From assembly GCA_025765615.1 (NCBI GenBank), contig JAIVFJ010000032.1, positions 127,001-191,000 of the forward strand: DNA of 64,000 nt, written 5' to 3'. Positions 18,932 through 45,782 of this stretch are shown here, one piece after another (position 1 is the first letter of the stretch; the number at the start of each line of letters is the position of its first letter). The stretch comes from Zopfochytrium polystomum. Taxonomy: Eukaryota; Chytridiomycota; Chytridiomycetes; Chytridiales; Chytridiaceae. Both the position numbers and the translations under genes were made by a program. A model generated the notes under the pieces. That model saw only the letters and a list, made by a program, of their open reading frames with translations, was not told the DNA's origin and did not search any database.

Positions 18932-20671
18932 TTACTTGGGTTGCTTCCAGAAACGATGCATCTGCACAGCAAAAAGCAACCCAACACTTCCAATGAGAGC
19001 ACTGTAAAAAAAAAAAAAGGAAAATAGCATTGCGCGAAGAGCCTTGGTCAGTCGCGCTTCGGTCGAACGTAAAAAAAAAAAAAAAAAAAACTCAACTACT
19101 GCGTGAGCACCGCCGCCAACCAGAGGTAGTACGCCGTGAGTCCATTAGGCAGCATCGACGCGGGTATCCGCAGCCCCGCGTGCGTGACGAGCGACGCGGC
19201 GACCGCCAAACACACCCAGCCCAGCGCGCTCCGGATCACCCGCACCGCCCCGACCCGCAGCTGCCACTCCACGGCCTCCAGGCTCGCGTCGAGCCGCTTC
19301 GGCAGCGGCGGCGAAGGGTGGTGTGTCACGGGGAGCACGGGCAACGGCGGAGGCGAGCGCGGGTCCAGCGAGGGAGGCGACAGAATCGGCAGCGAGGCGT
19401 GCGTCGACGTCGACGACCGCCGAGCCGACGACGACGACGTCGGCGAGAACGCCTGCGACTGCTGCCGGCGAACCGCGGTTGGCGAGTCGACCGCTTGAAA
19501 GACGATGGGGGCGCCGAGGTTTTGCAGACTCGTTGACAGTGGTGGGGAGGGCGTTGGCGGCGGCGCATCTCGTTGCGGGCGAAGGGGTCGAGGAAGGGAC
19601 GAGCTCTGAACAACGCCTTCGTCCTGTCTCGTTTGAGACGCACGTGCTTCGTCCATCGACTCTCGGACTCGATTCAACGTGAGGAGCGTCGGTCCTAGGG
19701 TCTTGAGCGCGTTGGAAAAGGAGTGACAGGCCCACAGCAGGCAGGCTAGAAGAATGCTGCAGCCCCCTAGTAGCCCGCCTGTATCGATCCAGGTGGCGAT
19801 TTCGTGTTGGTGCAGTAGAAGCTGTTGTCGATCGTAACTCGTTTCTGTTTGCAGTCTATCCTCGAGTATCCCAAGCCAGACGTCTGCGGCCCCGGAGGCT
19901 AACGGAAATAAGGAGAAGAAGAGAAGGAGGCAAAAGAACGTGGAGAGGCCTCGAATGAACCCCGTCAGTGGCCGCAGAAAGGCATCAAAGAGTAAAGGTA
20001 CGATAAAGCTTAAAAGAGCAACGCTTGCACCGCAAAAGATGCTAAGCGGTGGTATCTGTTTTAGCACGCCTCACGAGTTTCCTCTTTGAAAATGACTGAC
20101 CGGAAGTTAAGGGGCTTGAGCTCTCGCATGAACCGGAGGGACACTGCCTGGCTCAGAAGCAATAAGATGGCCAAAGAAATGGAGATCTCCATGGACGTCG
20201 GACGCGTCCTCGGCCCCTGACCTCGATATTCGCTGGCGTGAAGATGAACTGGAATGGAGCTCCGGCGGAGTTGGCGAGAAGCAAGGACCAGTACAGGCAT
20301 GCCGACCGCTGCCGTCAGAAACAGCAGGATGGAAACAACGTCGACTGTGGTGTGGTTGAAAAGTTTTCTTTCGTGAATGCTCTGCTTGGGGGCGGCGATG
20401 TGACCAGCGGGATCTTACCAAGATGGTTGCAAACGGGGCTGGCCAGGCCCGCGTAGCATCGCAGGTCAAAGTAGGCAATGCAAGGGGACTGCACATCGCT
20501 TCCATCTGAAGGCAGGGGGGATGAGTTTGGTGGATCCTCTGGGCGGCCAGTGCGCCCTGTCTTCTTAACGCGCCCCAGATTGATCTCACCTGGCGTTGGC
20601 GGCGCCATACGCACGCTTGGTGACTTTTCTTGTCGAGCGAAAGAAACAAGGTTTGGACGGACGTGAGGCAA
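18932..20671 (-). CDS. Seven-pass membrane protein, family copy 1
   Basis: Four exons (20419-20671, 20101-20344, 19097-20041, 18932-19001) join with phases 1-2-2 to about 503 residues. The N-terminal segment has the cysteines of SPCIAYFDLRCYAG. Predicted membrane helices: TM1 SILLFLTAAVGMPVLVLA, TM2 around SISLAILLLLSQAVSL, TM3 ASVALLSFIVPLLFDAFL, TM4 ending ADVWLGILEDR, TM5 LLGGCSILLACLLWA followed by KTLGPTLL. A Pro/Ser-rich loop of about 120 residues then leads to LEAVEWQLRVGAVRVIRSAL, TM6 and the YYLWLA motif. TM7 (ALIGSVGLLFAVQMHRF) sits in the last small exon. The family is unrecognised; the topology (short outer N-terminus, long TM5-TM6 loop, short tail) is GPCR-like. The start (ATG 20671, or 20608) is uncertain. 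It is head-to-head with copy 2, about 370 bases apart. Confidence 0.7.
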
Positions 20672-21037
20672 CGGAAGGCATATGTTTGCGGTTGCCTTTC
20701 CGGGAAGTTCAGAAATGCCGCATTCGGGAAATCCGACACGATTCGGCGCACGCGTTCTGTCTCAAAATTCCGCTTAATCAGTACTTGAAAAGTCCATAAG
20801 GCCCGCCAGAGCAGCAGGATTTCAACGCTTGCGAAGGAGAAAAAAGCAAAATCGTAAACCGCTGGCAACAGCCCCTTTGCACCTTACGTGAATATGGCCC
20901 TCGTGAACTCGAACTGGAGTAGTGGGGGAGGTCGACGCTTTATCCCCTTCTCTTGTCAGCGCCCGTTTCCGCTTCCGTTTCCGTCCCGAGCGGAGCCCGA
21001 AGGGCCAGTCCTTCGCTTGAGACACGCGAAAAGTGGT
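20672..21037. promoter_or_regulatory. Shared divergent promoter region of seven-pass copies 1 and 2
   Basis: The two family copies start on opposite strands on either side of this stretch of about 366 bases, so their promoters must lie here or overlap. No specific element was identified. Confidence 0.35.
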
Positions 21038-22854
21038 ATGACGCAATCGACCTCCAACATGCTCCTGCCGCTGCAAGCCACCACCGTCGCCAGCGCAGCC
21101 AGCCAGATCGGCGACTCCAACGGCGAGTCGTGCAAGGGCTACTTTGACTTGCCTTGCTACTCGTCACGCGCAGGATCTGCCTTCGAAGGCACAGGCATGT
21201 CGCGCTTCCCCATTCAGCGGATTCGGCAGGAACCTCCCCGTTAACCCCTCTACCCCCTACCTTCCACCTCACCCCACACCCCGACAGTGGACACGTTTCT
21301 TGCCATCTTCCTTCTGATTGCCGCAGTGGGCATCCCAGTCCTATTCATGGTCGCCCTCCGAGTGCAGCGGAACCCGCGGGCATTCTTTCCAGGCATGGAT
21401 CGCCGGCCCTTCCTTCGCCCAGCGTCAATCGAAACCGCCACTGCCCTCGCGGTGGCCACCACTTTTAGCCAGGCCCTGGCGCTCCTGCAGCTACGAAGAC
21501 AAGACGTCCTTTCATTCCAGTTAAGCTTGCATTCGGCCCGCATCTTTGTCGCTAAGCAAGGTTGTCAAAACCCAACAAACCCCTCCCCAATACATGTATA
21601 GAGTCTTTCGCAAGTGCGAGACCGTCTTCTTGGGCCTCACGATCCCGACTTTCTTGCACGCCTTTCTGCACCCCATGTCGCCGCACGTCCCCCGTCTCGG
21701 CGTCTTTCTCAAACTGACGCTTCTGATCCCCGTCCCGCACTTTGTCGAGGCCGCAGCCGGCATATGGCTGGGCGTTCTGGAAGATCGCATCCTCCGCGAA
21801 GCAGACCTTGCCCGCTTAGACGACTTGAACCAGCAGCAAAAGGCGCTGCGACGGCTGGACTCCGCCACCGCGGGCCGCGGGTATCGCGCTCATCGTGGCG
21901 TTCTTGTTCTGGGGAAGGCAGCAGTTCCTTAGCGCCCTCAAAACCCTGGGCCCAACTTTCCTCACCCGACTCCGCGCGCGTGAGGCCGACGGCCAGCTGT
22001 CGCCGCCGCCTTGCCCGAGCGCTGCCGCTCCTGCGTCTCGGCCGTCACCGGCGTCGGCGCCGGCGGCATCCATCGACCCGCCCACCCCCCTGCCGTGGCG
22101 CGACCTCCCCTCCCCGCACTCGACGCCGCCGCCGCCCCGCGCATCGTCCTCGTCGTCCTCGTCCTCATCGCCCGCCCCCTCCATCCTCGCCCGCTGGGGC
22201 AGCTCCCCGCTGCTGAGCCCCGCCTCGCCCCTCGACTCGCCGAACCCGCTCCTACGCTCCGCCGCGGCCCAGTCCCCGCCGCCGTGGCCGTCCTCGTCGT
22301 CTCCCTCCCCGCACGCAGCGACGACGACCCACACCCCGCCGCCGCCGCCGCCGCCATCCCGCGCCGCGGCGGCCTTCCCGCCGATCCAGTACCAAGTCCC
22401 GAACAAACAGCAGCAGCAGCGGCAGCAGGGCAAGACGCCGACGCGCCGCCAGGACCCCCCGCCGCAGCAGCAGGAGCACATGGACGCGCTGGACGCGGTC
22501 GAGTGGCAGCTGCGCGGCGGCGGGTCGGTCAAGCTGATCCGTGGCGTGCTGGGCTGGGTCGTGGCAGCCGGCGTCGGGTGCCTGGCGTGCGACGCGGTGC
22601 TGGTCGTTCTGATCGAGGTCGCCGGGAACAGCCTGGCGGCGTACTACGCGTGGGCGGCGCAGGCTATCGTCGATTAGTTGAGTTGAATTTTATTATTTTA
22701 TTTAAAAAAAAATTTTTATTTTATTTTTTTTTTTGGAATAAGGCAAATATTAATACTCCAAAACCAACACGCCGCTCCCAGCTCGTTCGTCGCGGGAGCG
22801 GCGCTTGTTTTTGCTGTACAGATTCACCGACAGGAGGCGCAATCCAAGGAGTGA
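21038..22854 (+). CDS. Seven-pass membrane protein, family copy 2 (one apparent frameshift)
   Basis: Exons 21038-21194, 21288-21519, 21602-22676 and 22782-22854. The N-terminus carries SCKGYFDLPCYS. TM1 is TFLAIFLLIAAVGIPVLFMV, then RNPRAFFPGMDRRPFLRP, TM2, TM3 (VFLGLTIPTFLHAFL), TM4 ending AGIWLGVLEDR, and TM5 (IALIVAFLFW) with KTLGPTFL. A Pro/Ser/Gln-rich loop of about 165 residues is followed by DAVEWQLRGGGSVKLIR, TM6, YYAWAAQ, and a last exon with FVAGAALVFAVQIHR. The first intron uses a GC donor (ACAG/GCATGT), as does copy 3. In exon 3 the frame slips by one base at a GGG run, 21872-21874, between DSAT and AGIALIV; both sides are clearly coding and all other splice phases fit, so a sequence error is as likely as a real mutation. 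Confidence 0.7.
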
Positions 22855-23334
22855 AAAGAATCGTCCCCCTCCTTGATATATCAACGCGCTTAGAACACAC
22901 ACACTGAATATAAGTACTAGACTTTTGCTTTTTCTTGAACCATTCTCAGACCTGCCTGCCAGTAGGCATCCAGAGTCCTCCACCCCTCGCAGTGAAGCTT
23001 TTTGAAACAAGCGTTCCGCTTGGGCTTCTGGGCATCCTCTCATTTTTGAACAGAAAAAAAAAACTAGCAAATAATACCCAGGACAATCTCTTGACACCAA
23101 CCCGTCTTACGTCGATTTCTTAATAGTGGTGTGTGGGGAAGTGGGGGAGTGGGGGGAGGATAAAAGGTGTAGATATCTAATAGCCCAACCAAAAATCTTT
23201 TTACATGACCTCACCGACGCTGAACAAGTATCATCATAAAAGAAACCACGCATTGTTTCAGGAGCGGAATAGAACTTGAGCGTCCACAACTTGGAGCTTT
23301 GACTTTGTTACACGTAGTCCACTAAATCTTCCAA
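22855..23334. other. Spacer between convergent seven-pass copies 2 and 3
   Basis: Presumed 3' ends of both genes; a short A run near 23050. No other feature seen. Confidence 0.4.
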
Positions 23335-24382
23335 CTATGTTGTAACTGCAGCGTATCGGTAGATCTGCACCGCAAAGACGACCGAGGCGCCAGCAGTGAA
23401 AGCGCTACAGAGCGAAAAACGTCAGTGAATCGCGCTCGGGGGGTGTTCGCAAAAAAAAGGACCGAGAAAAAAGAAGAAAAAAAAAATACTCAACAAGCTG
23501 ACGACCACCTGCGCGACCCACGCGTAGTATGCGGTCAGACTGTTCCCGGCCGCGTCGATCACAACAATCAGCGCCACCTCGCACAGCAGGCACCCGATCC
23601 CCGCCGCGACCACCAATCCGAGCACGCTGCGGATCATCCGCACCGTCCCGCCGCGCAGCTGCCACTCTAGCACGTCCAGCGAGTCCCGCGGCGGCGGGGG
23701 CGGTTCCGGCCGGTGCGGGGGAGGAGGGAACGGGGGAGGTGGTTGACGGGCGTGGGGCGGCGGGAAGGACGGCGTGCGCTGCTTGTACGCCGTCGCGAGG
23801 GGCGGCGGCGACTGCGGCGACTGCGGCGACTGCGGCGACTGCGGCGGCGGCGGCGACGGAGCGACGCCGCCTCCGCCCTGCGGAGACGGCGCGCCGTGCC
23901 ACAGCGCACTGCTCCCCGAGTCCTGCAGTGCGCCGCTCGAACCGCTGCTCGCGTGCGACATCGCGGTCTCCCTCGCCCTCAGTCTGTTGAGGATCGACGG
24001 CCCGAGCTCCCTCCTCGCCCTCAGGAACTGCCGCCGCGCCGCGAACAGGAACCCGAGGATCAGCGCGATCCCCACCGCCGAGCTGCCGCCGTCGACCCAC
24101 CGCAGCGGCTCCTGCTGCCGCGCGAGCTCCGCGACCGCCGCCGCGTCGTCGCGGAAGAGGAGCATCCGCGCGCCGAGTACTCCGAACCAGATGCCGGCGG
24201 TCGCTTCGATGAAGGGCGGGATCGCGATGGTGAAGAGGAGACGCATGAAGACGGTGAGGCTTGGGACGTGCGCGGACATGGGCTGCAGGAAGGCGTGGAG
24301 GAGGCAGGGCATCGTGAGGCCGACGAAGACGGCTTCGCTCTTGCGGAAGATTCTGGGGGGGTTTTTTTTTGTTTGTTTTTTT

Positions 24383-24416
<34 letters not shown>

Positions 24417-25187
24417 GCGCAAAGGCGCGGGGTCAAATTTACTTCATGCTCGGCACTTTCGTTTATTTGCTGCGCGAGGAAACACGGCTTACTGGAAAAG
24501 GACAATGTCGTGCTGTCGAAGGTACACCATCGCCAGCGCGGACGAGACCATCATTGCCGTGGCAAAGGCGATTGTGGCTTCGATGGCCGCGGGACGAAGC
24601 AGCGGCCGGCGGTCTGCGCCGGGAAAGTACGACCGCGGGTTGCGCTGCACCTGCCGCACGACCATGACGAGCACCACAAGCCCGGCAGCTGAGATGAGAA
24701 AGAAGATGGCTGCGAGTATGTCGACTGTGGAGGGGGGTTTTTTTTTTTTGTTCATGTATGTTTTTTTACATTTTGGGGTAATACTTCGGGTCAGTCAGGT
24801 GCGACAGGCAGGAGCCGGAAGAGCAGGGACGGCAGGGAGGGCAGGAAGGAGCAGGAACGACAGCAGGCAGGATGTGGGAGCGGGCGAGTCGTTCGTTCGT
24901 TTGTTCGTGCCTGCGGCTTCAAAGACGATGCCCTCGCGGGCACCGTAGCACGGCAGATCAAAGTAGCCAATGCAAGCGTCGACACTATTGTTGCTGTTGT
25001 CCGCAGCAGCGGCGGCGACGGTGAGGCTGCTGCTGCTGTCGCCAAGGAGGAGGAGGCCGGTGGTTGTGAGCGCGAGAAGGAGGCGGAGGAGCAGCGTGGT
25101 GGTGGTGGTGGTGGTGGTGGTGGTGAGCCGCGCGAGCCGCGGCGGCGACGGCAGCCGTGGTGGTGCGGAAGAGGGGCGAAGAGGCAT
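23335..25187 (-). CDS. Seven-pass membrane protein, family copy 3 (intact)
   Basis: Exons 24911-25187, 24493-24724, 23495-24352 and 23335-23404 join with phases 1-2-2 to 478 residues, with no frameshift. The N-terminus has a Thr tract and a hydrophobic signal-anchor-like stretch, then ACIGYFDLPCYGAREGIVFE. TM1 is ILAAIFFLISAAGLVVLVMV, then RNPRSYFPGADRRPLLRP. TM3 is FVGLTMPCLLHAFL and TM4 ends TAGIWFGVLGAR. TM5 is followed by RELGPSILNRLRARE. A Pro-rich loop of about 100 residues precedes LDVLEWQLRGGTVRMIRSVL, TM6 and TAYYAWVAQ. TM7 is FTAGASVVFAVQIYRY. Intron 1 has a GC donor (GCAG/GCACGA) at the homologous place to copy 2; intron 2 contains a (GT)n microsatellite. This is the best reference copy for the family. 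Confidence 0.78.
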
Positions 25188-25278
25188 GTGTGTGTGTGTG
25201 TGTGTGTTGCGAGTTGGCGTGTTGATTGGTCCAGTCAGTAATGAATTCATGTAACCGTGTGAGAGTGTGTGTGTGTGT

Positions 25279-25318
<40 letters not shown>

Positions 25319-27489: not shown

Positions 27490-28876
27490 ATGTCACAGCC
27501 GTCCGCCGCCTACCTGCTGTCGCGCATGGCCGGCCTCCTCGTCTTTGCGCCCGCCATCAACGCCGACATCTCCATGCTCAACCTGATCGCCTGCATCGCC
27601 GACGAGACCAAGCGCCGCAGGGCGCTCGCCGCCGCCGCAGCGACCAGAACGGGCAACCACCCAGGATCGTCGGATCGCCCGAGGCCGCTGCTCTCACCCG
27701 CGCAAAAGGCCATCGTCGTTGGCACGTGCATCAGCATATTCGGCGATCTCATCATCCTGTACACCTGCGTGCACTCCAACCTGGACAACTCGTGGGTGTC
27801 GCGGAACCCCCCTTTGAAGGGGTTTAGCGTGGTTTTCAAAATTTCTTTTTTTTTCGTGTTGCTCACGCGCTATTTGCAATCCTTTTCTGTTTCCCCGCAG
27901 CTGGCCGGGGTTTCCAAAGTGGATGGCCATCTTCAACATCGTCAAGCGCCTTCACAGCATCATCGCCGTCCACATCACGTTCCTCCGTTTCCAGGTCGTC
28001 ACCGGCCGCTTTAAGCCGAAGCGCTCCCCGCGATCTCGTCAGCGCGGCGCAAGCAAGCGGAGAACCACGCTCGAGCGAATGACGAGCAACATGCCCGCCC
28101 TTCTGTCAACGATAGGGTACACCGTCGTCTCAATCGTCTCCGTCGCCTTTCAGCTGTACGCCTTCATCGACAATAAGTGGGATGGCAAAGCGAGCCGCGA
28201 GAGCCAACCGTTCGCACTGTACAGAATCATCAGCTTCGTCGGGACTTGCTACCTCACCCTTATCGCATTGTACACGGACACTGCCCTCATCTCCCTCAGC
28301 ACCAAACTGTACGAGGCCGGCCGCGCGAGCCTCAGCGCCACCATGTCGCTTCCTCTAAGCCGCCTCAGCACCTCCCGCATGAGCTCCTCCCGCGACGCCG
28401 TCTCCGCGATCCTGACCCCCGCCATCTCGGTCGAGAACCTCACCGCGGCGGCCGCAACCACAACCACCACAACCACTTCCACCAACGCGACCCCCTTCTC
28501 CATCGACCCCCTGAAACGCGTCAAAAAATACTACAACCACTGGATCAACCTCGCCTACGAGGTCATCCTCTTCTTCGCCTACGTCATCCTCAGCGTCGCG
28601 TACTTTTTCGACGCCACCTTCATCGCAGGCGTCTTTGTCGAGCAGGCGCTCATGGCGTTTGTCGCGCTGAACGGCTACGTGCTGCTGCACGCCGCTTTGA
28701 AGGAGGCTGATGCGGGCAACGCGCTGAAAGCGGGGAACTTCGGCGCCGGCGGCGGACGCGCAAAGCCCCGGAGCGACGTCGAGGCGCCGGCGGACGGCGG
28801 GTTTCTTTTCGGTGCGGCGCCTTCCTCTTCGCGGCCGTTCAGCGCCAGCGACGCAGCGGACGACCAGACGCGTTGA
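27490..28876 (+). CDS. Seven-pass membrane protein of a different subfamily
   Basis: Two exons (27490-27821, 27901-28876) join at AAGGG/GTTTAG...CGCAG/CTGG to 435 residues. Hydrophobic segments: about 14-32 (GLLVFAPAINADISMLNLIA), about 72-93 (AIVVGTCISIFGDLIILYT), about 120-140 (FNIVKRLHSIIAVHITFL), about 170-190, about 205-225, then after an Ala/Thr/Ser loop two more (VILFFAYVILSVAYFFDATF and VFVEQALMAFVALNGYVLL). This gives seven, with the longest loop before helix 6, and a hydrophilic tail. It lacks the WLG.LE, LGPT, VEWQLR and FAVQ motifs and the 1-2-2 intron pattern of the neighbouring family, so it is either very divergent or unrelated. GPCR-like topology; no family recognised. Confidence 0.7.
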
Positions 28877-29945
28877 AAATTCCTTCACGTTATTCTTATT
28901 TTCCCAATCCCCTTTCTTTTTTTTTTTTCCGCCCCGGTTCTTACCTCCACATTCTTGGCCAAAAAAAGCGCAGCCACAGCCGCACAGAGAGTTCCGGCAA
29001 TTCTATTTCCCACTTTTTTTCTTCATCTGTTTCTTTGCAACCAAATACTTCTTGGCGTCTCTCACCCAGGACAGTGTCAACGCTTTTTTTGATCAGTCGC
29101 GCTTTCGTACCTATGCGCTCACACGCATACTTTTATCAAACGGGCAATTGGCCACGAAAATGAGGATAAACCCACTCCATTACTTCTGGGCTCTTTCACC
29201 CCACCCCCCCATCCTCAACTCGCTTCTTTAGGTTATTCAAGCGCCCGACCAAGGACGTACCGGCGCAGAGCTGCAATGTTTCCACTCGATAATCTGTTTT
29301 TTTTTTATTTCAGCCCGTTTGCAGCACGGTCTCCAAATTACACATCAGACCTCATCGATGTCCCCCCCGATGGTGGGGGGGGCAAGCCAATCATGGGTTT
29401 TCTGCCCAAGTGTTTTTTTTTTCTTTTCCTTTTGGCCCCAGTTGGAAAAAACCTCGATGGCTTGTTGGATCGATCCTCCAAATAGCGTTTTGATACCAGG
29501 TTTTTCTTGAACCGGCTCTATGACATCGCCTTTCCGTATTATTCGGGAACAGGGACTTGTATGAGATTCTCAATTATCTCACATAAAGTGTTGGCCATAG
29601 TTTAGGTTCTGAATGAGCTCTTACTTAACTATGTGACATATAACACATCTTACATTTTCTTTCTTACACATGACCCTTTCTGAAAGAGGTATCTTCCAGT
29701 CGTTCCCATATTTTTCTAATTTTCTACTAGGTAGCTAATTATCTGGACTATGCGTCAAGTTCCCCGCTCTAATTGCACTGTATTTCACTATCTTTGATAG
29801 TGAGAAAGAGCTCTCTTTGGCTCTTGTGTTACAAATAGAGTCTGAGTAACTTGAGCCCCTTGGTTATATGTTTACATACCTCTGCAAGTTAAGAACAAAA
29901 AAATTACGGTGGTTGAACCACATCAAACCATACTACGGCGATTTA
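28877..29945. other. Spacer becoming AT-rich
   Basis: Short T runs at 28917-28930, 29296-29308 and 29412-29421; AT-rich from about 29560 to the MITE. No gene seen. Confidence 0.4.
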
Positions 29946-30565
29946 CAGCAATGCACCGAGAACGTTGCATTTTCGAAGAAGAACAAAAAAAGAAATGAAA
30001 GTGAATTCAAATTGACATCAAACTGAGCACGAGCTGAGAAGTGGTTCAAGTGAAGGTTCAAACAGAATTGGTTTGGTCGGCGTCGGCCACGTTCCTTGAA
30101 TCACTCGGAACGAAACAGGTCGACCAAGAGTGGCGCTCATAGCTGATGCGATCTCATCCTGGTGCAATGTTGGGTGCTCTCTGATCATCTCCGCAATACG
30201 GTCCATGTCCTCCCAACTGAGCATTCGTTGGTGACCAGATCGGGGAAGTGGTTCATGGGTCCCCCTTTGTTGATATGTTTGAAGCACATTGTGCACTGAT
30301 CAAAGGCTGACGTCAAATAACTCGGCCAAATCACTTGGAGACCACCCTCCTTGAGATAGGACTTGGATTCTCTCCCTGACATGAGTATGGATTCGAACTC
30401 CTTTCATTTTGAAGAGGCAGTGGCACGGAAGGGAGTTGAGGGCGACGTGGCTGAACCTCACTTGAACCACTTCTCAGCTTGTGCTCAGTTTGATGTCAAA
30501 TTGAGTTCACTTTCATTTCTTTTTTTGCTCATCTTCGAAAATGCAACGTTCTCGGTGCATTGCTG
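29946..30565. mobile_element. Tc1/mariner-type MITE, 620 bp, with long terminal inverted repeats
   Basis: The left end CAGCAATGCACCGAGAACGT and the complement of the right end are identical over the first 34 bases. Alignment continues with few mismatches for about 115 bases, so the inverted repeats are long. A TA dinucleotide flanks each end (29944-29945 and 30566-30567), the target duplication expected of Tc1/mariner transposition. Between the repeats lies only a transposase N-terminal remnant. The ends still match closely, so insertion was probably not very old. Confidence 0.85.
30018..30357 (-). pseudogene. Tc1-like transposase helix-turn-helix remnant inside the MITE
   Basis: On the minus strand the peptide runs SPSDLAELFDVS, a stop, then SVHNVLQTYQQRGTHEP, LPRSGHQRMLSWEDMDRIAE and HPTLHQDEIASAM. 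This is the paired-type DNA-binding region of Tc1/mariner transposases: a first HTH, a basic GR/SGR linker, a second HTH. No DDE catalytic domain follows, so the element could only move with help from elsewhere. Confidence 0.7.
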
Positions 30566-30930
30566 TAAGAAAAAAAATTAACTGAAGACAAATACAAAAA
30601 CAACAAAAAAAAACGGTCTGGTCAAAGAGAAAAAAACAAAAAAAAAAGAAAATGCGAACAGAAAAAAAAACAAAAAAAAAGGAAATGCTGTCAAAAGTAA
30701 CCAAGTCAGCGCGATTGCCACAAGCGCAGGTGAAGCCCAGATCACTCGCCGATCTGGAGCCTCACAATCCACAACCACCAGTCTGATCGCAACCAACTGA
30801 TTCGCGAACTGATTTGCAAAACCGATTCGCACAACAACTTGGCAAGCTTGGCCATTGAAGTGAGCAACAAGCCGATTGCAACCAACAGCCAGTCGATAGC
30901 TGCAACTGCAACACGCAAAGCGACCGAACG
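30566..30930. other. A-rich and CAA-rich spacer
   Basis: A-rich runs at 30570-30690, then CAA/GCAAC-rich DNA. No gene recognised. Confidence 0.35.
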
Positions 30931-33385: not shown

Positions 33386-35147
33386 ATGACCTTCGCGGCG
33401 TCCGCGGCCGCGCCGACCACAACGGACGGAGCAGGTGAAGTCAGCCAACACCCCCACCGCCAGAGCGTAACTACGAAGTCTTACACCTGCTGGGATGCTG
33501 CCAATGCTGCTAATGTTGCTCGGTTAAAGCAAAGATCCGTCCCTCTAACGGTGGAATCATCCATCACAGGGTGCAAATCGGCCATCGATCTCGCCTGCCT
33601 CGCCCGCCTGGCTGGGGACCCCTTCGTGAGAGTGGGTAAGTGTTTCTCCCAGCCATTACCACCACCACCACCACCACCGCTACACCAGCGGGGGGTTTCG
33701 ACTGGCCGATCTGACTCTGCCGCATTTGCTCTTCCCCCAACTGCTCACAGTTGACGTGTTCATCGTCCTCCACGTTCTTGTTATTGGCGTTGGATTGCAT
33801 GCTCTCGTTCTGCTGATCCTTCTGGCAAGGCGGCAGCGGCGCGTCACCGTTTCCATGAGCGGAGCCGTGGGCGCGTCCCTCGTCACCACCCTCTGTGATA
33901 CCGTCTCGCTCGTCTACCTGCGCTTCAAGAATCCTCTCCTCTTCGAGTCAGTGTTTGACTTGCTTTCCGTGCCTTGATCATCCGTTCGCGTTATGAGTCC
34001 TAACCATCGCGAATCACAGACTGTTCCAGGGCGCTGGCGTCGTCTTTGTCGGCTTCAGCGTCAGCCTCCTCATGTACGCCTTCATCCACCCCCTCCTGCA
34101 CCAAGTCCGCTCCTTCGAACCCTTCATGCGCCTCCTCTACGTCATCCCAATCCCGCCGCTCGTCGACGCCGCCGCTATCGTCTGGCTAGGCCTCCTCGAG
34201 CAGCGCGCCGCCGACGAAACCGACCCGGCAAAGCTGGACGAGATCGAACAGCAGCACGGCATCGCCAGCTGGCTCGACGGCGCGGCCGGCTCCGCCTTCT
34301 GCCTCGTCTTCATCATCTTCATCGTCGCCGCCTACCGCGCCTTCACCCTCGAGCTCAGAACCACCCTCGGCCCCACCCTGCTCGCACGAAACCGCATGCG
34401 CTCCGCGGCCGCTGCCGCCGTCGACCCCTGGGCGATCCCCGACGACCTCCGTGCCCCAACTGAACCGTCGCTCCAGCGGACCCCCTCCCTCCAGGACGCC
34501 GGCGACGCGACGTCCGCCTTCGTCGGATGGAACTCGGACGGCCCGCTGCTCTCGCCTGCGTACTCCCTCGCGCCCGACGGCAAGTACACCGTCAACGGCG
34601 GGCTGCAGGTCATTCTACACATGCACCCCGAGCTCGCCGACCAGCAATCCCAGTTGCACAACGTCAACCCGCACTTTAAACAGCAGCAGTTGGACATGCA
34701 GCAGCTGCAGCTACAGCAGCACCAACAACTACTCTTCTCGCCAGACGCCCAGCCGCCCTTCGCCGCGGGATTCTACCCCCCCGCGACCCCACCCTCCGCG
34801 CTTCTCCCGTCGACCGCATACCCCCCGCAACCGTCCGCGCCGCCGCCGCCGCAGCAGCAGCAGCATCAGTACCAGCAGCAGTACAAGCAGCAGGCGAGCA
34901 GCCGCTCGCACGGTCAGTCTTCGGCTTCGGCGGCCGCGGCGGTGCAGGACCCGCTCGAGTCCGTCGAGCGCGAGATCCGCGTCGGCGCAGTGCGCGCCGT
35001 GCGCAACCTGGTCGGGTGGATCATCGTCTGCCTGTCGATCTCGGCCGTCGGCTTGATTGCGACAAAGGGCGCCGGCTCGCTGCTGCCCGGCGGCACTACC
35101 GGGTTCGCCGTGTGGGTCGCGGGGAACCTGCTGCAATTGTGAGTGTG

Positions 35148-35181
<34 letters not shown>

Positions 35182-35306
35182 CGGACCTCTTGTCGGGTAG
35201 CCGTTCTGAGAAGTCTTCCCTAAATTACAGCTTTTGCATTGGCGCCGGCGTCGTCGCCGTGTTCATCGGGCAGTACAGGCGGTACGCCTTGGAGACTGTA
35301 AAGTAA
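33386..35306 (+). CDS. Seven-pass membrane protein, family copy 4 (intact)
   Basis: Exons 33386-33635, 33751-33946, 34020-35138 and 35231-35306, phases 1-2-2, 546 residues, all GT-AG. The N-terminal segment has GCKSAIDLACLA, a diverged form of the cysteine motif. TM1 is FIVLHVLVIGVGLHALVLLI; exon 2 is shorter than in other copies (196 nt), lacking the FFPG.DRRP segment. TM3 is VVFVGFSVSLLMYAFI, TM4 ends AIVWLGLLEQR, TM5 is followed by TTLGPTLLARNRMRS. The TM5-TM6 loop is the longest (about 240 residues), Gln/Pro/Tyr-rich, then LESVEREIRVGAVRAVR, TM6 and FAVWVAG. TM7 is FCIGAGVVAVFIGQYRRY. Intron 3 is mostly a T run (35150-35182). Confidence 0.76.
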
Positions 35307-35896
35307 CTCTTATGCATGGAGGAGACCTGCCACATCCGCTTTCTTATCTACCTTTGGTTGTCTTTCTTCCATTATTGCTTGTATGAGCATCCACACCTTT
35401 CCCTTTTTCGTTTTTTTTCGTAAGATTGGAGGGGCACACAGGCGAATGGTGGAAGGACAAGGAACCGACCCTGAGTCGCCAGACCTACGCTTCGTTTCGC
35501 TTGTTTAGAAGTCACTTTTTTTTCATTCGTGTTCACAAAAGGTCACAGTAGAACTTACTGCGATGTTGTGACAGTCAAGGGAACAAAAACAAAAACAAAC
35601 AAAGAAACAAACAAACAAAAAAACAACCCAATGAACATCAAAACGAAAATCATCCCGCCCATCATTCTCCCGCATCGGGCAAGTGTTTTTCGCATGATCG
35701 AATACAGAAGCAGGAGGTAGAAGGTGTGGTACGGGAACAATTACTTCCAAACGAAACAAGCATCATTCTTGCCCTTGATCCGGTCGTTTCCTCCACTTTC
35801 ATGCTCATTTCCTTGATTTGAGAGGCGAACACCAGTCTTATGAATCTTTCGAAATTGGGTAAATGAAAGAGAGTTGACCACTTCCGAGACTAAAAA
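35307..35896. other. Spacer between seven-pass copy 4 and tRNA-Asn
   Basis: No coding signal; short A-rich block at 35580-35625. Confidence 0.4.
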
Positions 35897-35985
35897 CGCT
35901 ACCGGGTGGACTCGAACCACCAACCTTGCGGTGAACTGTTAAAGTAATAACAGCCGCACGCGCTAACCAGTTGCGCCACGGCAGC
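35897..35985 (-). tRNA. tRNA-Asn(GTT) with a 15-nt intron
   Basis: Acceptor GCTGCCG pairs with CGGTAGC, the D stem is GCGC/GCGC, the anticodon stem TGCGG/CCGCA, the T arm GGTGG-TTCGAGT-CCACC, and the discriminator is G. The anticodon loop is CTGTTA plus A once the 15 bases TTACTTTAACAGTTC are removed at the usual 37/38 site, leaving anticodon GTT. A T5 run directly downstream on the transcribed strand is a Pol III terminator. Confidence 0.9.
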
Positions 35986-38100: not shown

Positions 38101-40054
38101 ATGGATCCGCCGCCGTCGCCGCAGTCCCTGTCGGCCGGAGCGACGACAAGAGGTGAGTTGGGTGGCCTGACTACGCCGACCTCGGCTTCGTCGATTCGAC
38201 CGCTCCATCATCCCCCCTACGCTGCGCTGTGTCGCGCCACCCGCCACATACTACCCGTCACTTACCAGCTTTTGGTTCATCCCCCTCCGTTTGCACATCC
38301 AGTGCCGCTGTGCCTTTCGTCTCGAATGAAAGACTGCAGTGAGCGCGTCGCTCATTGGGTTGCCCCCGCGGGTTCGTCTTTTTCATTCTAGCCAAAATCG
38401 GTCTGCTGACCCACACACACCGCCCTCAAACCACCCCCACGCATCGCATCCCAAAAGGAGAACTTCTCTTTGGCAGCAACATCGCCTGCATCATTGTCGG
38501 TCTCCTTGCGTCGGTGTTGCTCGTGCATTTGCGACGCACGAGCGTTCAACCGGGTGATGTTCGCCTGACAAAGATCTGGAATCTCAGACCTTTCGACATC
38601 TTTTTCATCTGCTACAACACGACGTTTCTACCACTCCTGGTTGCTCTCTTTTTGTCGACGAGAATCAACACGACTTCGTTCATCTTCACGTAAGTTGTTC
38701 CCTCTTTCTCACTGACGGCGCTGATTCCTGGCTTCCCACCCCCCTTTGCGGTTTGCAGAATTCTGGTCGCCTTACGGGACATTGGTCTGTCCGTATCGAT
38801 CATCTATCTGATCAACTTGATCCTCGCCTCCACTCACCGCACCACCTACGCTGTCCACATGATCCGGCGCTATGGTCTTCCATCCTTGATGCTGCCCATC
38901 GTCACTGCAGCCGCTTTTTCCGCCTACGCCGGCCACCTCCGCGACATCTTGTACACCGACAACGAGCTCCTCCTCGCCGCGGACGCCTCCGCGGCAACGG
39001 GCACACAGCTTCCATCTTCCATCCCCGACGGAGGCAGCAAGCAAACCGTTGCGGACGTCGAGCGGTGGACCGCAGACTTTGAAACAAAGAACCAAAGGTA
39101 CAAGATCGTGCACCCGCTCGCCGTCGCCATCTCGCTCCTCGTCGCGGTCGGCAACGTCGCCTTCCTCGCCGTCGCGTGGCTGGAATCGCGCCGCGAGCTG
39201 GAGGAGCTCGAGTACTGCGTCGCGCACAACAGCGCCGGCGACGGCCTGCGCGTGTTTGCCGGCCTACGCGACGCCGTCAGGTTCCCCGCCCTCCGCGACG
39301 TCCTGGACCTCCGCGCCCGCTGGCAGCACGCCGCCTTTGGCCGCGTGCGCATCCTCTCCCCCATCAGCGTCACCCCAACAACCTCCTTCTGGTCGCCCGA
39401 CGACCGCCACCCAATCCCGCCCGTCGACATCCGCGACCGGGAACCTGCGACTCAGCCGCCGCCACCCCTCGCCCCGCGCGCCGCAGTCCGCCCTCCGCGC
39501 CCGCTGCCGCCGATCCCAACCGACCGCGCTCCCGTCGCAACCCCTGCCCTACCCCCGCCAATCCTCACGACCGACACCACCGCGCAGCCGCCGACCTCGC
39601 CGACCTCGCCGTCCTCCCTGCCGCCCACGTCCCCGGCCTGGGTCCCACCGTCCCCGTCGTCCGCCCGGTCCAAGCTGCCGTACAATCCGGACCGCGAGAC
39701 CGCGGCGCGGGAGGCGCTGCGCCGCAACATGCGCAGCATCGCGTGGATCGCGTTGGCGTGCGCGGTGTGGGCCGGAGGCGGGGTCGCGTCGCTGATCGTT
39801 GCGTCGACGCGCGGAGGCACGGGGCTGGGGAACGGACGGAAAGGCACCGCCGAAGTGACCGGTTTTGTCGTGGAGCACGGGTAAGACTAACGTTTGGATT
39901 TATTGGTGTGCCTGGCCCCTAACACCTTTTTTTTTACAGCGGTGGTCTTGTCACCGGTCTTGTGTTGAACGTCGGAATTGTCGTGCGTCTGTCTGTGCAA
40001 CTCGCTCGGCGGAGCTTGCGAAGGCAGCGACGGGTTGCTTTTCTCGCTGCCTAG
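38101..40054 (+). CDS. Seven-pass membrane protein, family copy 5 (divergent)
   Basis: Exons 38101-38152, 38458-38689, 38759-39880 and 39940-40054 join with phases 1-2-2 to 506 residues. The N-terminus is short, without the cysteine motif. TM1 is IACIIVGLLASVLLVHL, TM2 IFFICYNTTFLPLLVALFL, TM3 IGLSVSIIYLINLIL, TM4 SLMLPIVTAAAFSAYAG, TM5 LAVAISLLVAVGNVAFLAVA. A Pro-rich loop of about 200 residues follows, then TM6 SIAWIALACAVWAGGGVASL and TM7 LVTGLVLNVGIVVRLSV, with a basic tail. Sequence motifs are weak, but exon number, all three intron phases and the 232-nt second exon match copies 2 and 3 exactly, arguing for common descent. No frameshift seen. Confidence 0.7.
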
Positions 40055-41365
40055 ATCACGAGGCAAAAGCAATAGTCTCTCCTGTATCCAAAATTTTTTT
40101 GTTGAATCCGGGTGTTACCTGCAATATACTTACTGGCATTACCTTGGCTAGTCCATGTGACCTGAAGGCTTTTTGAGATCAATGCCACCGGCAATCGATA
40201 CCCCCCCGCAAGCCCAAAAATCATCTGGGTTCCCAGCCATCGGCTGCCTGGCGTTCCCACAGGGACGGGAGGATCCAATTACTAATAGAGAGGGAAAATG
40301 GAATGCATTGCCGGGCTCTGTCGGCCGATGTAAATCGGAATTGAGGTTTGGACGGACACGACCGCGGTTCATCCGTTCCTCATTATATCCCATTATGACC
40401 CCTCCCGCCTCTGCAAATGTCGAAGCCGCTACTTCTGCGATCTCGGCCTCGGTTTGAACCTTAGACGGGACGGCCCAGCTGCCATCGTCTCTCCTGCTGA
40501 AGAAGCCCCTCGCTCTCTCAACCCTGAATAAGGGGAGCTGCGTGAACGATTTCGCGACGCTCAAGTCTGGTGAGGCTTCGTGCAAGGTGTCGGTTGGTGG
40601 CACGTGCTTCCAGTCTGGCTGGATTGGTCTCAGTGCCGGGAAATCTTGCTAAACGGCGTCACGCTTTCCGCTTTGCTTCCTGGTATGCTCACCGAGCGAT
40701 AGAGCGATCCATTATCTCTCTTCTCTTCCTTTGGCTCCAGTCTTCTTGCTACCTGTCGATGAATTGCCCAAATTTATTGCCGTCCAGAGTGGGAGAGACT
40801 TTGTTTTTTTCAATAAACGGCAGCCCCAACGCACAAGTATTTTTTGATCTCGCCACGCCACCCAGTATTAATACTTGAAAGCAGTTCTGCATGTGTGAGG
40901 AACGAATCTTTTGCTTTTTCTCTTTCTTTGAAACGCGCCATGGACGGTATCGTTTGCCCTCGCCACGCTCTGTCCAAAAAGCTGTCCAGGTGACGGCCAT
41001 TGATTATTAATACGCTGGCCGCTGCTGCTGCTGCCGCTGTGGCTATCATCCACCCAAGCGTTATTTTGGGGCATCATCATCCGCGAATGTCACGCGGATC
41101 CGTGCTTGTTGGATTCGCAGTATGTGTGTCTAACCCGCGGAGGTGGACGGACATAACTATTTATCCGAAGTCTTTGTTGTTTGCCGGTGTTTATTTGTTT
41201 CGTTTGCATTATTTTACATATACTCGGAGCAAACCCACTCCCCCACTGGTATATATACGCGCCGCACATCCGGTCGGGTCTTTCAACCCCCCGTTCCATT
41301 CCAAGCTAACCACTTCCACACACACACACTCACACCTCCTTCCATTGCAATACTCTAAAAGAACC
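40055..41365. other. Spacer and promoter of the MDR gene
   Basis: No supported gene. A TATA element lies at 41250-41257, followed by a pyrimidine/CA-rich leader. Confidence 0.4.
41250..41257 (+). promoter_or_regulatory. TATA box of the MDR oxidoreductase gene
   Basis: TATATATA about 110 bases upstream of the ATG at 41366. Confidence 0.5.
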
Positions 41366-42535
41366 ATGACCTCCGCCGCCGCCGCCGCTGTCCCCGCCAC
41401 CATGAAGGCCCTCATGATCGAGGCCATCGGCAAGCCCATCGTCCTCGAGGAGGTCCCCTTCCCGACCGCCCTGCCGGGTACCTGCGTCGTCAAGGTCCTT
41501 GCGGCCGACGCCAGCCCCGGAACCCCGGCCCTCGCCGCCGGCCACACTCCCTTCACCCACCCAGGCCCGTTCTGTCCGGCCACCCGCGCCGTCGGCCGCG
41601 TCGTCTCGGTCGGTCCAGACGCCGCGACCCTCGTACCGGGCCAGCTCGTGGTCCTCGAAACCTTCCTCCGCGCGCGCGACGACCCCGACGTCCAAGCGCT
41701 CTGGGGGCTCTTTGACGGCGGCTCTCCCGCCAGCCGCCGCTTCGTCCGCGACAACTGGACCATGGGCACCCTGGCGCAGTACGTGCGCGCGCCGCTCGAG
41801 AACGCCTTCGCCCTCGACGAGCCGCGGCTGTGCGGCGCGCTGGGCCTGTCGTTCGCCGACTTGGTCGTGCTGCCGACCGTCGCGGTCGGGTACGCCGGGC
41901 TGCGCGCCGTCGGCGTGCAGGCGGGGGAGACCGTGGTCGTGGCGCCGGCGACCGGCGCGTTCAGCGGGACCGCGGTGCACGCCGCCGTCGCGATGGGAGC
42001 GAACGTGATCGCGATGGGACGCAAGCCGGCGGACTTGCTCGCGGTGCAGGCCGCGTTCCCCGCGGGGCGGGTCCGCGCCGTGCCCATCACGGGCGACGTC
42101 GCGGCCGACGCCGCGGCGCTCAGGGCCGCCGCCGGCTCCCCGCGCGGGGTGGACGTGTTCCTGGACTTGTCGCCCGCTGTCGCAAAGGGGTCGACCCACG
42201 TCCGCAGCGGAATCCAGGCGCTGCGGCAGGGTGGCCGCGCGTGCCTCATGGGCGTTCTTCCCGAGGATTTGGCGATGCCGTACGCGTCGGCCGTGTGGCG
42301 GAACCTCACGATCAAGGGTCAGTACATGTACGAGCGGCACATTGTCGCCGACGTCATCAAGCTTGCAGAGTCGGGCGTGCTGCCGCTCGGCAGCGCGGCG
42401 GGCATCGAGGTCGTTGGGACGTTCCCTTTGGAACAGTTTGCGGACGCCTTTAAACTGGCGCAGGAAGTGAAGGGGTTTGGCAAGATGGTTGTGTTTACAC
42501 CGAACGCTCTGCCGGGAGCGGGTTCGAAAATGTGA
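41366..42535 (+). CDS. Medium-chain dehydrogenase/reductase (quinone-oxidoreductase-like)
   Basis: An intronless gene of 389 residues. The N-terminal catalytic domain starts MKALMIEAIGKPIVLEEVP, a typical MDR opening. The nucleotide-binding domain has VVVAPATGAFSGTAVHAAVA (place of the GxGxxG loop, here A-T-G-A-F-S-G) and GANVIAMGRKPADL, ending strand 2 in Gly-Arg, which suggests NADP rather than NAD. GGRACLMGVLPEDLAMPY and the late LTIKGQYMYER fit MDR enzymes. The structural and catalytic zinc cysteines of classical alcohol dehydrogenases are not visible, so it is probably a zinc-free reductase. The substrate is unknown. It stands alone between seven-pass copies 5 and 6. Confidence 0.85.
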   Translation: MTSAAAAAVPATMKALMIEAIGKPIVLEEVPFPTALPGTCVVKVLAADASPGTPALAAGHTPFTHPGPFCPATRAVGRVVSVGPDAATLVPGQLVVLETFLRARDDPDVQALWGLFDGGSPASRRFVRDNWTMGTLAQYVRAPLENAFALDEPRLCGALGLSFADLVVLPTVAVGYAGLRAVGVQAGETVVVAPATGAFSGTAVHAAVAMGANVIAMGRKPADLLAVQAAFPAGRVRAVPITGDVAADAAALRAAAGSPRGVDVFLDLSPAVAKGSTHVRSGIQALRQGGRACLMGVLPEDLAMPYASAVWRNLTIKGQYMYERHIVADVIKLAESGVLPLGSAAGIEVVGTFPLEQFADAFKLAQEVKGFGKMVVFTPNALPGAGSKM

Positions 42536-43090
42536 TGAACAAAAAAAGACACAGTGAAATAAACACTTGAGCGAAGGGTACAAATCTTTGTTTTCGTCCG
42601 ATGCCTTTTACCTCGAAAGGAGAAAATATCACCGTAGGCATTGTTGCCGTCCACTTTGATCGTTCCTATCCTCCTCTTTTAGTCGTCTCCCAGAACCTCA
42701 CGGATTTCTGAAATGAGTCGGCTCCGCCACTTCATCATCCACCCTTACTCCATTCGCAATCAGCCATCGCAGCAGTTCTTTGTACTGTCTCGCGAAGCAC
42801 CTAACCTCTCTCTTTCTCTCTCTCTTCTATCACACATTTATTCAATCGGACTAATAGTGCTGAAAAAGTGCGAACAGCAGAAAGAAAAAGATGAAAGCAC
42901 CCTCGCGTAAACGTGAGGTCTTCCTTTGACTCGGGACCGGCACCGCCTCGATGGAAGATGATAATAAGCGCAGCGGAAAACAACGGCCATTTCCTCTTCT
43001 TGTTGTACGGGCTCATTCGACTCCTGTTTCGCCAGCGATGTGTCGCCAACGAAGAGGCGCAACTTAAGAATCCTTGCGCTACGAGTTCTT
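42536..43090. other. Spacer between MDR gene and tRNA-Gly
   Basis: A short CT run at 42808-42831. No gene recognised. Confidence 0.4.
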
Positions 43091-43162
43091 CGACCAAGCT
43101 GGGGTTTGAACCCAGGTTCTTTTCCTTCGGAGGGAAACATGTTACCACTACACCACTCGGCC
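43091..43162 (-). tRNA. tRNA-Gly(TCC)
   Basis: 72 nt. Acceptor GGCCGAG pairs with CTTGGTC (including G-U pairs). The D arm has GTGTAGTGGTAACAT as in eukaryotic tRNA-Gly. Anticodon arm TTTCC-CTCCGAA-GGAAA gives anticodon TCC. T arm CTGGG-TTCAAAC-CCCAG. Confidence 0.92.
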
Positions 43163-43627
43163 GATGTTAGCCCAATTTTGAAATGCTTACAAGTTTTCTT
43201 CCATCATGAGCGAAAGTTTGCTCTTTGTTTTTTTTTCAACGATCGCCACGCCGATGGAATGGAACCAGTGACTTGAATTAAGCGAAATCAAGGGGAAAAA
43301 AAAAGTGCCTTCGGCTGGACGAATGACTTTACTGCGGCCCAGAACCGACACCCCCATTTGTCGCCGCCACCCCTCCATTCATGAGGAAGAGAGACCGGAA
43401 GAACAAAGGTGCGAGGACCACAATGCACTGGGGCAGCGCAAACGGTACAACCAAGGGAAATTTCAATCTATTTATTTTGCACTGACTTGGGGGGCTGGGG
43501 TGGGGGCGCCAAGAAACGAGACGACGGACGTGAAGAAAAAAAGGAGACCCGCGCCAAAATATCTTAAAACTGCCGGGAGGCCTTTTCCCCCCAAACTCAG
43601 CAAAAAAAAAAAGAGCTGAGGATCGGA
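43163..43627. other. Spacer between tRNA-Gly and seven-pass copy 6
   Basis: No gene recognised; presumably the 3' flank of copy 6. Confidence 0.4.
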
Positions 43628-45782
43628 TCAAAAGTACTCCTGCTGAGCCCGTCTCTCCGCGTCTTGTTTCTGCTTGGCTGCTGCTCCGCTCGCTTCGTCT
43701 CCCGTCGCTTTCGCATCTGCGAGACACTGGCGCCCCTGCAGAATAATGACCGCGCAAAACGCGACGGCCGTGACGAAGCTGGGGGTGAGTGCGTTGTGTG
43801 GGGGTTTCGCACGACGGCCGTGGAATAAGCAGGTGTTAGCGAACGGATTACCATCCCCCATAAAAAAAAAACCAAAAGAAGAAAAAAAAGGGTATTCCCC
43901 TCGCAAAAAGACAACTCAACTATCGCAAAAGCGTCCCCGCGCACCAAGCGTAGTACCCCCGCGGCGCCGTCCGCCGGTGCGAGCCCGAACGCGTGCAGCC
44001 CGAGGTTCGACACCACCGTCAGCACCATGGCCGCGGCGACGGCCGCCAGCGCAGGTTTCGTCGCGCCGGCTTGCACAAAGAGGAGCCGGTCGTGGGGCGA
44101 CGGTACCGGGAACGGGGGTGCGGCAGGCGGGGGCGGTGGCGACGGCGGCGGCGGCGACGAAGCTGTCTGAGAAGGGTTCGGTCCGCGGCCGTTTGAAACG
44201 TCCGAGTCCACCCTACTTAGCGCGAGGGTCCTGGCAGATCCGGGCCGCCTCCTGCTCGTCCGCGAGCCGCTGCCGCTCCTGGAGGAAGCACTGCAGGAAT
44301 GGGTCTTCGAACGAGACGCCCCGCGAGCTCGCGCCCGGCGGCGGCGGTCTGACGAGCGGTGTCGCCGCCCGCGGCGATCCCGCAACGCTGCGGCGCGGCA
44401 GAGACAGCGAGCTCGCCGGGACCGCCAGCGCCCGTTCCTCGCCAAAACTGCGCATCGATCTCGGCGTCTCCGAGCTCCATCTGCGCCGCGCGGCGGCGGC
44501 GGCTGCCGCCGCCGTCTGCGGCGACCGCAGCGCCTCCTCGACTCTGCGTCTTGCCCTCGTCTGGAGGATGTACGCCCACGCGAGGAACCCCAGCACCGTA
44601 ACCCCGACCAGCAAGAACACGGTGCACTCTGCAATGTCCGCTTTCCCTTGCTGGACGATAATGTCGTCGCTGCTGTCCATCGGCGCGGTAGAGTTGAGGC
44701 GGTTTCGACGACGCCGAGCCAGAGGGTTGCGCCGGCGTCGAGGGTAAAGGGGACGATGAGGAGCGGGAGGAGGAAGGTGAAACGGGGGAAGGTCGGGATG
44801 AAGGATCGGACGGGGAAGAGAAAGGCGTGGAGAAGGGTGGTGATGGTGACGCCGCTGAAGAGGATGCTGGCGCTCTTTGTCGCTCTTTTTTTGGGTAGTG
44901 TCGGCAGGGTTATCAGAGGGTTGGCAAACATTAGAAACACTACTTACTCGAAAAGTAGCGGCTGCTTCGCACGCAGCAGGCTTAGCGACGACGACTGCGC
45001 CAGCACCGTGAGTGATGCGAAGAGCACGGACACCAGGCTGGACGTCGGGCATGCAAAGCTCCTCGGCTCCGCTCCGTTTCGTTTCTGCCACATCCGCCTT
45101 GCCGTAATGACGACAACGGCAAATCCGGCGAGCGCGATCAGTGTGTAAAGGACGGACTGGATTCGAACTAAGTGGTCGAATCAGAGAGTTAGCGGCTAGT
45201 AGCCATGATGCCATGATGCGGGCGCCAAATCACGAACCTGCATAGACAAAGGCTAAAGACTCATTCTCGGCGTAGCATCGAAGATCGAATACTGCCTGGC
45301 AGGTATAGACTGGTCGTTTTTTTTTGTTTTTTTTTTTTTGTTATGTAATGTTATTTTGGGTTTGGCTGACCAAGGTTAGTTCTCGTGACACTGGGTGGGT
45401 GAGAGGGAAGGGTATCCCCATTCCATCCTTCCGTTCCTGTATCCATCCATCCATGCGTCCATCCATCAGTCCATCCATCAGTCCATCCACCGATCCGTCC
45501 CTTCGCATCGCACCGCATCGGATCGCGGCAGCCAGGAGGAGGAGGACGAGGATAACTGCCGCCGGATCAGGGGAAGTACCGTTGTTGCTACTTCACACAC
45601 ACGCACACTCGCCTTCCTCTCCTTCGTCCTCATCTTTGATGGCAGCGGTCGTCCACGAAGATGACGCCGCCGCCGCAGCCGCTGCTGCTGCTGGTGGTGG
45701 TGGTACTGCTGCTGCTGCTGCTTCGGCGGTGGCGACGGCGGCAGCGGCCAAGACCGCCACCATCACTCCCGCCACCGCCATG
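43628..45782 (-). pseudogene. Seven-pass membrane protein, family copy 6 (three apparent frameshifts)
   Basis: Inferred exons: 1 ending at 45238, 44948-45167, 43921-44884, 43628-43778. Exon 1 codes CQAVFDLRCYAENESLAFVY, the cysteine motif; an upstream signal-like MAVAGVMVAVLAAAAVATAE from 45782 may be the start, but the connection is unclear. TM1 is VLYTLIALAGFAVVVITA, TM3 ILFSGVTITTLLHAFL, TM4 ends ATLWLGVVE, TM5 is CTVFLLVGVTVLGFLAWAYI, TM6 ALAAVAAAMVLTVV, then YYAWCAG; the last exon has TM7 FVTAVAFCAVIILQGR and a Lys/Gln tail. Within exon 3 the frame changes near 44703 (TTT run), near 44216, and at the C run 43955-43959. Each flank is plainly coding. It is either a decaying copy or hit by consensus errors; exon phases 1-2-2 are otherwise kept. 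Confidence 0.6.
45441..45505 (+). repeat. Imperfect (TCCA)n tetranucleotide repeat
   Basis: About 14 TCCA-type units with G and T substitutions, within the uncertain 5' region of seven-pass copy 6. Confidence 0.7.

Follow-up and report, generated by a model that had tools for sequence, protein, structure and literature searches.

A genome-wide family of seven-pass membrane proteins, possibly G-protein-coupled-receptor-like, in the chytrid Zopfochytrium polystomum

The 64,000-nucleotide stretch of contig JAIVFJ010000032.1 of Zopfochytrium polystomum (Chytridiales) analyzed here, referred to below as the window (C32:127001-191000 in an assembly of 80.16 Mb and 761 contigs), carries between positions 18932 and 45782 six genes for seven-pass membrane proteins, designated A, B, C, E, F, and G. 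They belong to a large family with about 31 loci across the genome, for which the best-supported reading, advanced tentatively, is that of membrane receptors working like G-protein-coupled receptors (GPCRs); we infer this from their layout and conservation. The cluster had been noticed in a preliminary description made from the sequence alone. The genome-wide extent of the family and a Cys-x7-Cys motif before the first transmembrane segment (TM1), which is a sharper hallmark than the local motifs listed there, go beyond that description.

The six genes had been taken for divergent paralogues, and this view is borne out. With the TM3-TM5 region of gene C as a query against its own genome, the matches included B (E-value 1e-24), E (1e-19), A (3e-12), and G (4e-6); G also matched a copy on contig C64 at 2.4e-14, and BLASTP aligned A and C with P0001, the deposited protein of gene E, at 3e-26 and 2e-20, respectively. 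Judged by sequence similarity, A, B, C, E, and G are related beyond chance. Gene F had no significant BLASTP match to E (E-value 0.49) and joins the family by profile comparison with hhalign (Prob 74.8 over 209 columns, with control values of 0.1 for the neighboring gene D and 0.3 for reversed F) and by its possession of the same three introns. The local motifs of the preliminary description, compared by eye, proved less general: all five are present in A and B, and four plus a near-match in C, but E has two of them, G has YY.W and part of another, and F has none.

All reading frames were read and the exons were spliced by hand, which gave open models of four exons each for A, C, E, and F. The three introns occupy matching places (immediately ahead of TM1, in the stretch joining TM2 to TM3, and within TM7) and have phases 1, 2, and 2, as given by the coding-length remainders after exons 1, 2, and 3. 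The four-exon structure suggested earlier for gene C is confirmed, with intron 1 read with a GC donor. The deposited model of gene E (P0001, hypothetical protein DFJ73DRAFT_795053) has the same three joints plus one further small N-terminal intron that splits the exon at 33386-33635; P0002, another deposited member, for which no gene model was made, reads through the same intron places alike. Gene B fits the four-exon plan, but its exon 3 shifts frame near 21873, between TM4 and TM5. Gene G uses several reading frames inside exon 3. Either decay or assembly error may account for the broken frames of B and G.

Seven hydrophobic helices had been proposed, and a hydropathy scan, which covered A, C, E, and F as well as the deposited proteins P0001 (that is, E again), P0002, and P0003, agrees with this proposal: six of these seven sequences have seven segments, and C has eight, the first of them signal-like. 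Lys and Arg residues, counted over the whole loops of 17 composite sequences with the middle of the TM5-TM6 loop excluded, are more abundant in inner than in outer loops in all 17 by number and in 15 by density. By this charge bias, the N-terminus is probably on the outer side in most members and more weakly so in the subfamily of gene C. The layout predicted from hydropathy and charge, with seven helices, an outer N-terminus, an inner C-terminus, and a long TM5-TM6 loop, is the one expected of a GPCR with a long third inner loop, as had been suggested.

The Cys-x7-Cys motif before TM1 is the hallmark of the family as defined here. The strict pattern C-x3-[YFI]-[DSHY]-[LI]-x-C, scanned upstream of exon 2, was found at 20 of the 21 loci that have an exon-2 match (the exception is C233:52k), the background being two matches in 115,864 nucleotides, or 0.0086 expected per 500 nucleotides. 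This set leaves out three loci with no exon-2 match (C64:280k, C43:145k, and C32:41k), two to which the exon-2 step was not applied (C233:48k and C43:131k), and genes B and F. When all six frames of the window were scanned, the strict pattern gave five matches, one in each of the genes A, B, C, E, and G, all on the correct strand. A looser C-x7-C is present in F (CLSSRMKDC, outside the strict pattern), in its relative L086, and in P0003. It is probable that the two Cys residues form a disulfide.

The TM5-TM6 loop is the fastest-changing part of these proteins, as had been claimed from the window alone. In the three pairs formed by E and its paralogues L016 and L018, amino acid identity is 0.77 to 0.87 in the core versus 0.43 to 0.59 in the loop, gap columns are absent from the core and make up 37 to 53 of the 226 columns of the loop, and the dN/dS ratio is 0.16 to 0.48 in the core and about 0.55 to 0.77 in the loop. 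Pro and Ser together account for 0.23 to 0.46 of the loop at the 16 loci measured. Short stretches around TVNGG and NVNPxFK are conserved in the E-type loop (E, L016, and L018) and perhaps represent a docking motif; L022 and L029 carry a reminiscent TV[NH]G. Many of the least variable residues of the 17 composites are found at the inner helix ends: TM3 is followed by Pro and TM5 by Gly-Pro, Leu, and Arg; Arg, Gly, and Arg precede TM6; and TM7 ends with Gln and Arg. Further residues of low variability, e.g., Trp in TM4 and TM7 and Phe in TM5, are not at such ends. The tail and the inner ends of TM5 and TM6 are the most conserved regions. Mean entropy is 1.48 in inner loops 2 and 3 and 1.61 in all inner loops, versus 1.95 in the outer loops (P values of 0.003 and 0.019, respectively, from columns that are not independent).

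The genome was searched in six frames with five queries, four covering TM3-TM5 and one TM1-TM5; with overlapping sets merged by hand, this gave at least 27 loci, and three further weak ones on contigs C290, C250, and C313. At least four F-type loci (F included) were counted in addition, without four weaker matches on C24, C219, C260, and C283, for about 31 loci in total. Four contig pairs were counted once: C203/C4 and C233:52k/C146:81k, which show 97% DNA identity; C43/C607, with equal or near-equal search scores; and C233:48k/C146:76k, merged unchecked despite their opposite orientation, so that 28 loci are possible. The relatives of F are located on C16, and C394 holds copies that score almost the same. 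The near-identical copies on the pairs C203/C4, C233/C146, C43/C607, and C16/C394 point to an assembly in which both haplotypes are retained in some regions, so that raw copy counts are inflated.

The preliminary description had viewed the cluster as a local expansion, a view that has to be abandoned. The family is spread over the whole genome, and its copies in the window are scattered rather than grouped in a single clade: in a tree of 25 rows (F not being among them), A, B, C, E, and G require five label changes, the maximum for five rows (bootstrap range, 5 to 5; 500 of 500 label shuffles were as low as the observed value). Gene E groups with copies on C11 and C469, G with C64:276k, and B and C with copies on C16, C19, and C248. 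Local tandem expansion was therefore rejected. There are 23 pairs of loci no more than 25 kb apart among the 31 loci versus 0.29 expected under uniform placing, and 8 such pairs among 24 loci versus 0.17 expected when the contig of the window is excluded; the clusters would thus appear to be old and mixed. A divergent member, L036 (C32:41k; deposited as P0003, 656 amino acids), has 21% identity to E over TM1-TM5 and encodes its seven helices in one open frame, without the introns that interrupt A, C, E, and F there.

Pfam had no match to A, C, F, or gene D and only two sub-threshold matches to E. The best Pfam matches of the 17 composites, in one member each, were DUF202 (E-value 0.0011), DUF7535 (0.0072), and HisKA_7TM (0.0088), and 13 rows searched at an E-value of 10 showed nothing further that is receptor-like except an insulin receptor membrane segment at 6.6. 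Among PDB sequences, the A2 profile had a single match, to a ribosomal protein (0.49), the A3 profile and P0002 had none, and P0003 matched two succinyltransferases (0.014 and 0.023) over the loop and, in one of them, TM6. NCBIfam, applied to P0001-P0003, had one match, at 0.12; like A, C, E, and F, these three proteins reached the cut-off of no family. Among the results that would speak against it, the preliminary description had named a confident hit to a known family of transporters or enzymes; none turned up in Pfam or among the PDB sequences. A scan of prokaryote genomes with P0001 alone found no relative. From a database of 5.8 billion proteins, only three family members were returned, P0001, P0002, and P0003, all from Z. 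polystomum. These searches scored the 8000 best word matches each. One returned a single protein and another all three, but the query behind the latter in effect already contained P0002 and P0003 as rows; a search with the sequence of C returned no protein, not even C, so absence from other species cannot be read from them.

If these proteins are indeed GPCR-like receptors, they would presumably reside in the plasma membrane, with a short outer N-terminus carrying a probable disulfide hairpin close to TM1. Binding of diverse cues would fall to the helices together with the variable outer side. The tail and the inner ends of TM3, TM5, and TM6, which are conserved, would dock a partner common to all members, in all likelihood heterotrimeric G proteins, and the long disordered loop could tune or scaffold signaling. 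In GPCRs, contact with the G protein is made by the inner ends of TM3, TM5, and TM6. The family resembles GPCRs with a long third inner loop in having seven helices, a probably outer N-terminus, an inner tail, and a variable TM5-TM6 loop between conserved basic helix ends; unlike them, it has no sequence match to any class and no conserved DRY, CWxP, or NPxxY motif, and its conserved Cys pair is in the N-terminus. In class A receptors, DRY is found at the end of TM3, CWxP in TM6, and NPxxY in TM7; the family lacks these as conserved motifs, and membership in class A (rhodopsin type) was rejected. Opsins carry a retinal-binding Lys in TM7; there is no conserved TM7 Lys here (4 of 17 rows have one, two in the tail and two at the exon 3/4 joint of the composites), and membership in the opsins of types I and II was likewise rejected. 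Class C (glutamate-type, 7tm_3) receptors, also seven-helix proteins, are present in the same genome with 32 exon matches, but A, C, E, F, and the 17 composites have no 7tm_3 match and no large ectodomain, and class C membership was rejected as well. Fungal seven-helix proteins have been sorted into 17 GPCR classes (PMC12842992); no Pfam receptor domain of those classes matches A, C, E, F, or the 17 composites at an E-value of 1. The survey, which covered 1357 fungal species, left 141,666 seven-helix proteins unclassified, and its consensus predictions of new GPCRs were all in Agaricomycotina (PMC12842992). The family may be among those unclassified proteins. An older survey reports mammalian-like GPCRs in Chytridiomycota (PMC3251606).

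Several observations weigh against a receptor of this kind. No GPCR family model or receptor matched above chance level in Pfam or among PDB sequences, and the class A hallmarks, sought anywhere in the 17 rows, occur in two ([DE]R[YFH]), none (CWxP), and three (NPxxY), never as a conserved column. The short outer N-terminus of the preliminary description, supported by charge in most members, is less clear in the subfamily of gene C, where the Lys/Arg bias is almost flat (L010, 0.18 versus 0.17). By density, L012 and L014 are also near even, C and L011 are moderately biased, and the bias is reversed in L013 and L027. A simple inner/outer rule of conservation conflicts with inner loop 1, which is variable (entropy 2.09), and with outer loop 1, whose conservation (1.52) is in part an artifact of the splice-joint Arg of the composites. 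Six of 22 loci break the single frame between TM3 and TM6. The enlarged set of G-alpha genes (38 exon matches, read as about 10 to 12 genes, on C25, C177, C253, C428, C52, C57, C69, C442, C62, and C332, the last two of which look like a pair, with weak fragments on C46 and C646) fits G-protein coupling but does not single out the seven-pass family, since the class C receptors are encoded in the same genome, and these G-alpha proteins may serve the class C receptors instead.

The same features can be read otherwise. It is unlikely, but deserves serious consideration, that this is a lineage-specific seven-pass family with no receptor role, acting as a transporter, a lipid-handling protein, or a scaffold whose long loop binds cytosolic proteins. 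The lack of homology to any receptor family would fit, a scaffold could make use of the conserved inner side and of the disordered loop rich in Pro and Ser, and the short motif kept in the E-type loop points the same way; against this, no transporter or enzyme family scored above the cut-off in A, C, E, or F, charged residues are sparse inside the helices (Lys/Arg and Asp/Glu each 0 to 4% of TM1-TM7), and many divergent paralogues would seem to fit sensing better. A seven-helix sensor that dispenses with G proteins and signals via its long inner loop, with a layout like the seven-transmembrane input region of bacterial histidine kinases, is decidedly improbable. The weak HisKA_7TM match mentioned above concerns 1 of the 17 members, the other 16 having none at an E-value of 1, and P0002 matches the same model over TM1-TM5 at 1.9 with 8.7 bits, below the Pfam cut-off of 28.6; no kinase or other output domain was found in A, C, E, F, or P0001-P0003.

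Least probable of all is that the proteins are chytrid gustatory-receptor-like (GRL/7TMIC) ligand-gated ion channels, kin of insect odorant and taste receptors. Seven segments and the weak charge rule in the subfamily of gene C would suit such channels, and GRLs do exist in chytrids (PMC7746228). In the GRL TM7 motif, given as TYhhhhhQF (PMC9998090), the Gln near the end of TM7 has a counterpart in all 12 rows that hold exon 4, but it is the only residue of that motif retained. The GRL N-terminus is described as inner (PMC7746228), whereas charge density predicts an outer one in 15 of the 17 composites (not in the other two). The Cys pair lies in the N-terminus of the family, and the last intron of A, C, E, and F interrupts TM7 in phase 2, compared with phase 0 just before TM7 in GRLs. 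With predicted topology, TM7 motif, and last-intron phase all at variance, GRL/7TMIC membership was rejected.

To return to GPCR-like receptors, a bolder form of this reading, which must be regarded as rather doubtful, is that these proteins are eukaryotic seven-helix chemoreceptors of a class not described before, in which the ectodomain is a Cys-x7-Cys hairpin and the surface facing the G protein is conserved, and that they expanded in a chytrid as a zoospore sensory repertoire; if true, it would answer how zoospores find their substrates. The zoosporic fungus assumed as host in the preliminary description is indeed a chytrid. The mechanism of chytrid chemotaxis was called poorly understood in 2025 (PMC12115818), and the family members are candidates for the still unknown sensors of the swimming spores of a free-living chytrid. 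The roughly 31 loci, with their gene models, receptor layout, and defining motif, offer concrete targets for expression studies, removal, and ligand testing. The retrieval of three members only from 5.8 billion proteins, within the best word matches scored, suggests that large families of receptor-like proteins easily escape notice. Titles and abstracts, with subscription papers mostly outside, contained no description of this seven-pass family, and among literature naming the genus Zopfochytrium no title concerned its receptors.

Table 1. Coordinates of the family genes and of selected conserved elements in the window
Feature	Position	Strand	Details
Gene A	18932..20608	-	Exons 20608-20419, 20344-20101, 20041-19097, 19001-18932; intact; 482 amino acids; 7 hydrophobic segments
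Cys-x7-Cys ectodomain motif of A (CIAYFDLRC)	20456..20482	-	Strict-pattern match in six-frame window scan
Gene B	21038..22854	+	Exons 21038-21188, 21288-21519, 21602-22676, 22782-22854; Cys-x7-Cys from 21131
Gene C	23335..25187	-	Exons 25187-24911, 24724-24493, 24352-23495, 23404-23335; intact; 478 amino acids; Cys-x7-Cys from 24974
Gene E	33386..35306	+	Exons 33386-33635, 33751-33946, 34020-35138, 35231-35306; intact; Cys-x7-Cys from 33572
Conserved inner end of TM5 of E (LGPTLLARNR)	34366..34395	+	Low-entropy alignment columns
Conserved stretch in fast loop of E (DGKYTVNGGLQVILHMHPE ... NVNPHFK)	34576..34680	+	Alignment with two paralogues
Conserved inner start of TM6 of E (LESVEREIRVGAVRAVRN)	34954..35007	+	Low-entropy alignment columns
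Gene F	38101..40054	+	Exons 38101-38371, 38458-38689, 38759-39880, 39940-40054; intact; divergent subfamily
Gene G	43628..45782	-	5' end uncertain; TM1-2 45180-44947; TM3-4 44883-44689; later helices in other frames; Cys-x7-Cys from 45301

Gene D (27490-28876, plus strand), which lies among the six genes, has two exons, seven hydrophobic segments, and no Pfam match. It was rejected as a seventh member, as it shows no sequence kinship to the six genes (the hhalign value given above; BLASTP E-value, 1.7), and it belongs to another large seven-segment family in the genome (29 matches). Other features of the window include a transposon-like element at 29943-30568, with 111-nucleotide inverted repeats that are 95% complementary and 404 nucleotides apart; a tRNA-Arg (CCG) gene at 43090-43163 (minus strand), found by both ARAGORN and Rfam, and a second tRNA at 35897-35985 (minus strand), found by Rfam only; a zinc-type alcohol dehydrogenase gene at 41366-42532 (plus strand), between F and G; an ankyrin-repeat match in an open frame at 48862-50205 (minus strand); and a fatty acid hydroxylase domain at 58319-59026 (plus strand).

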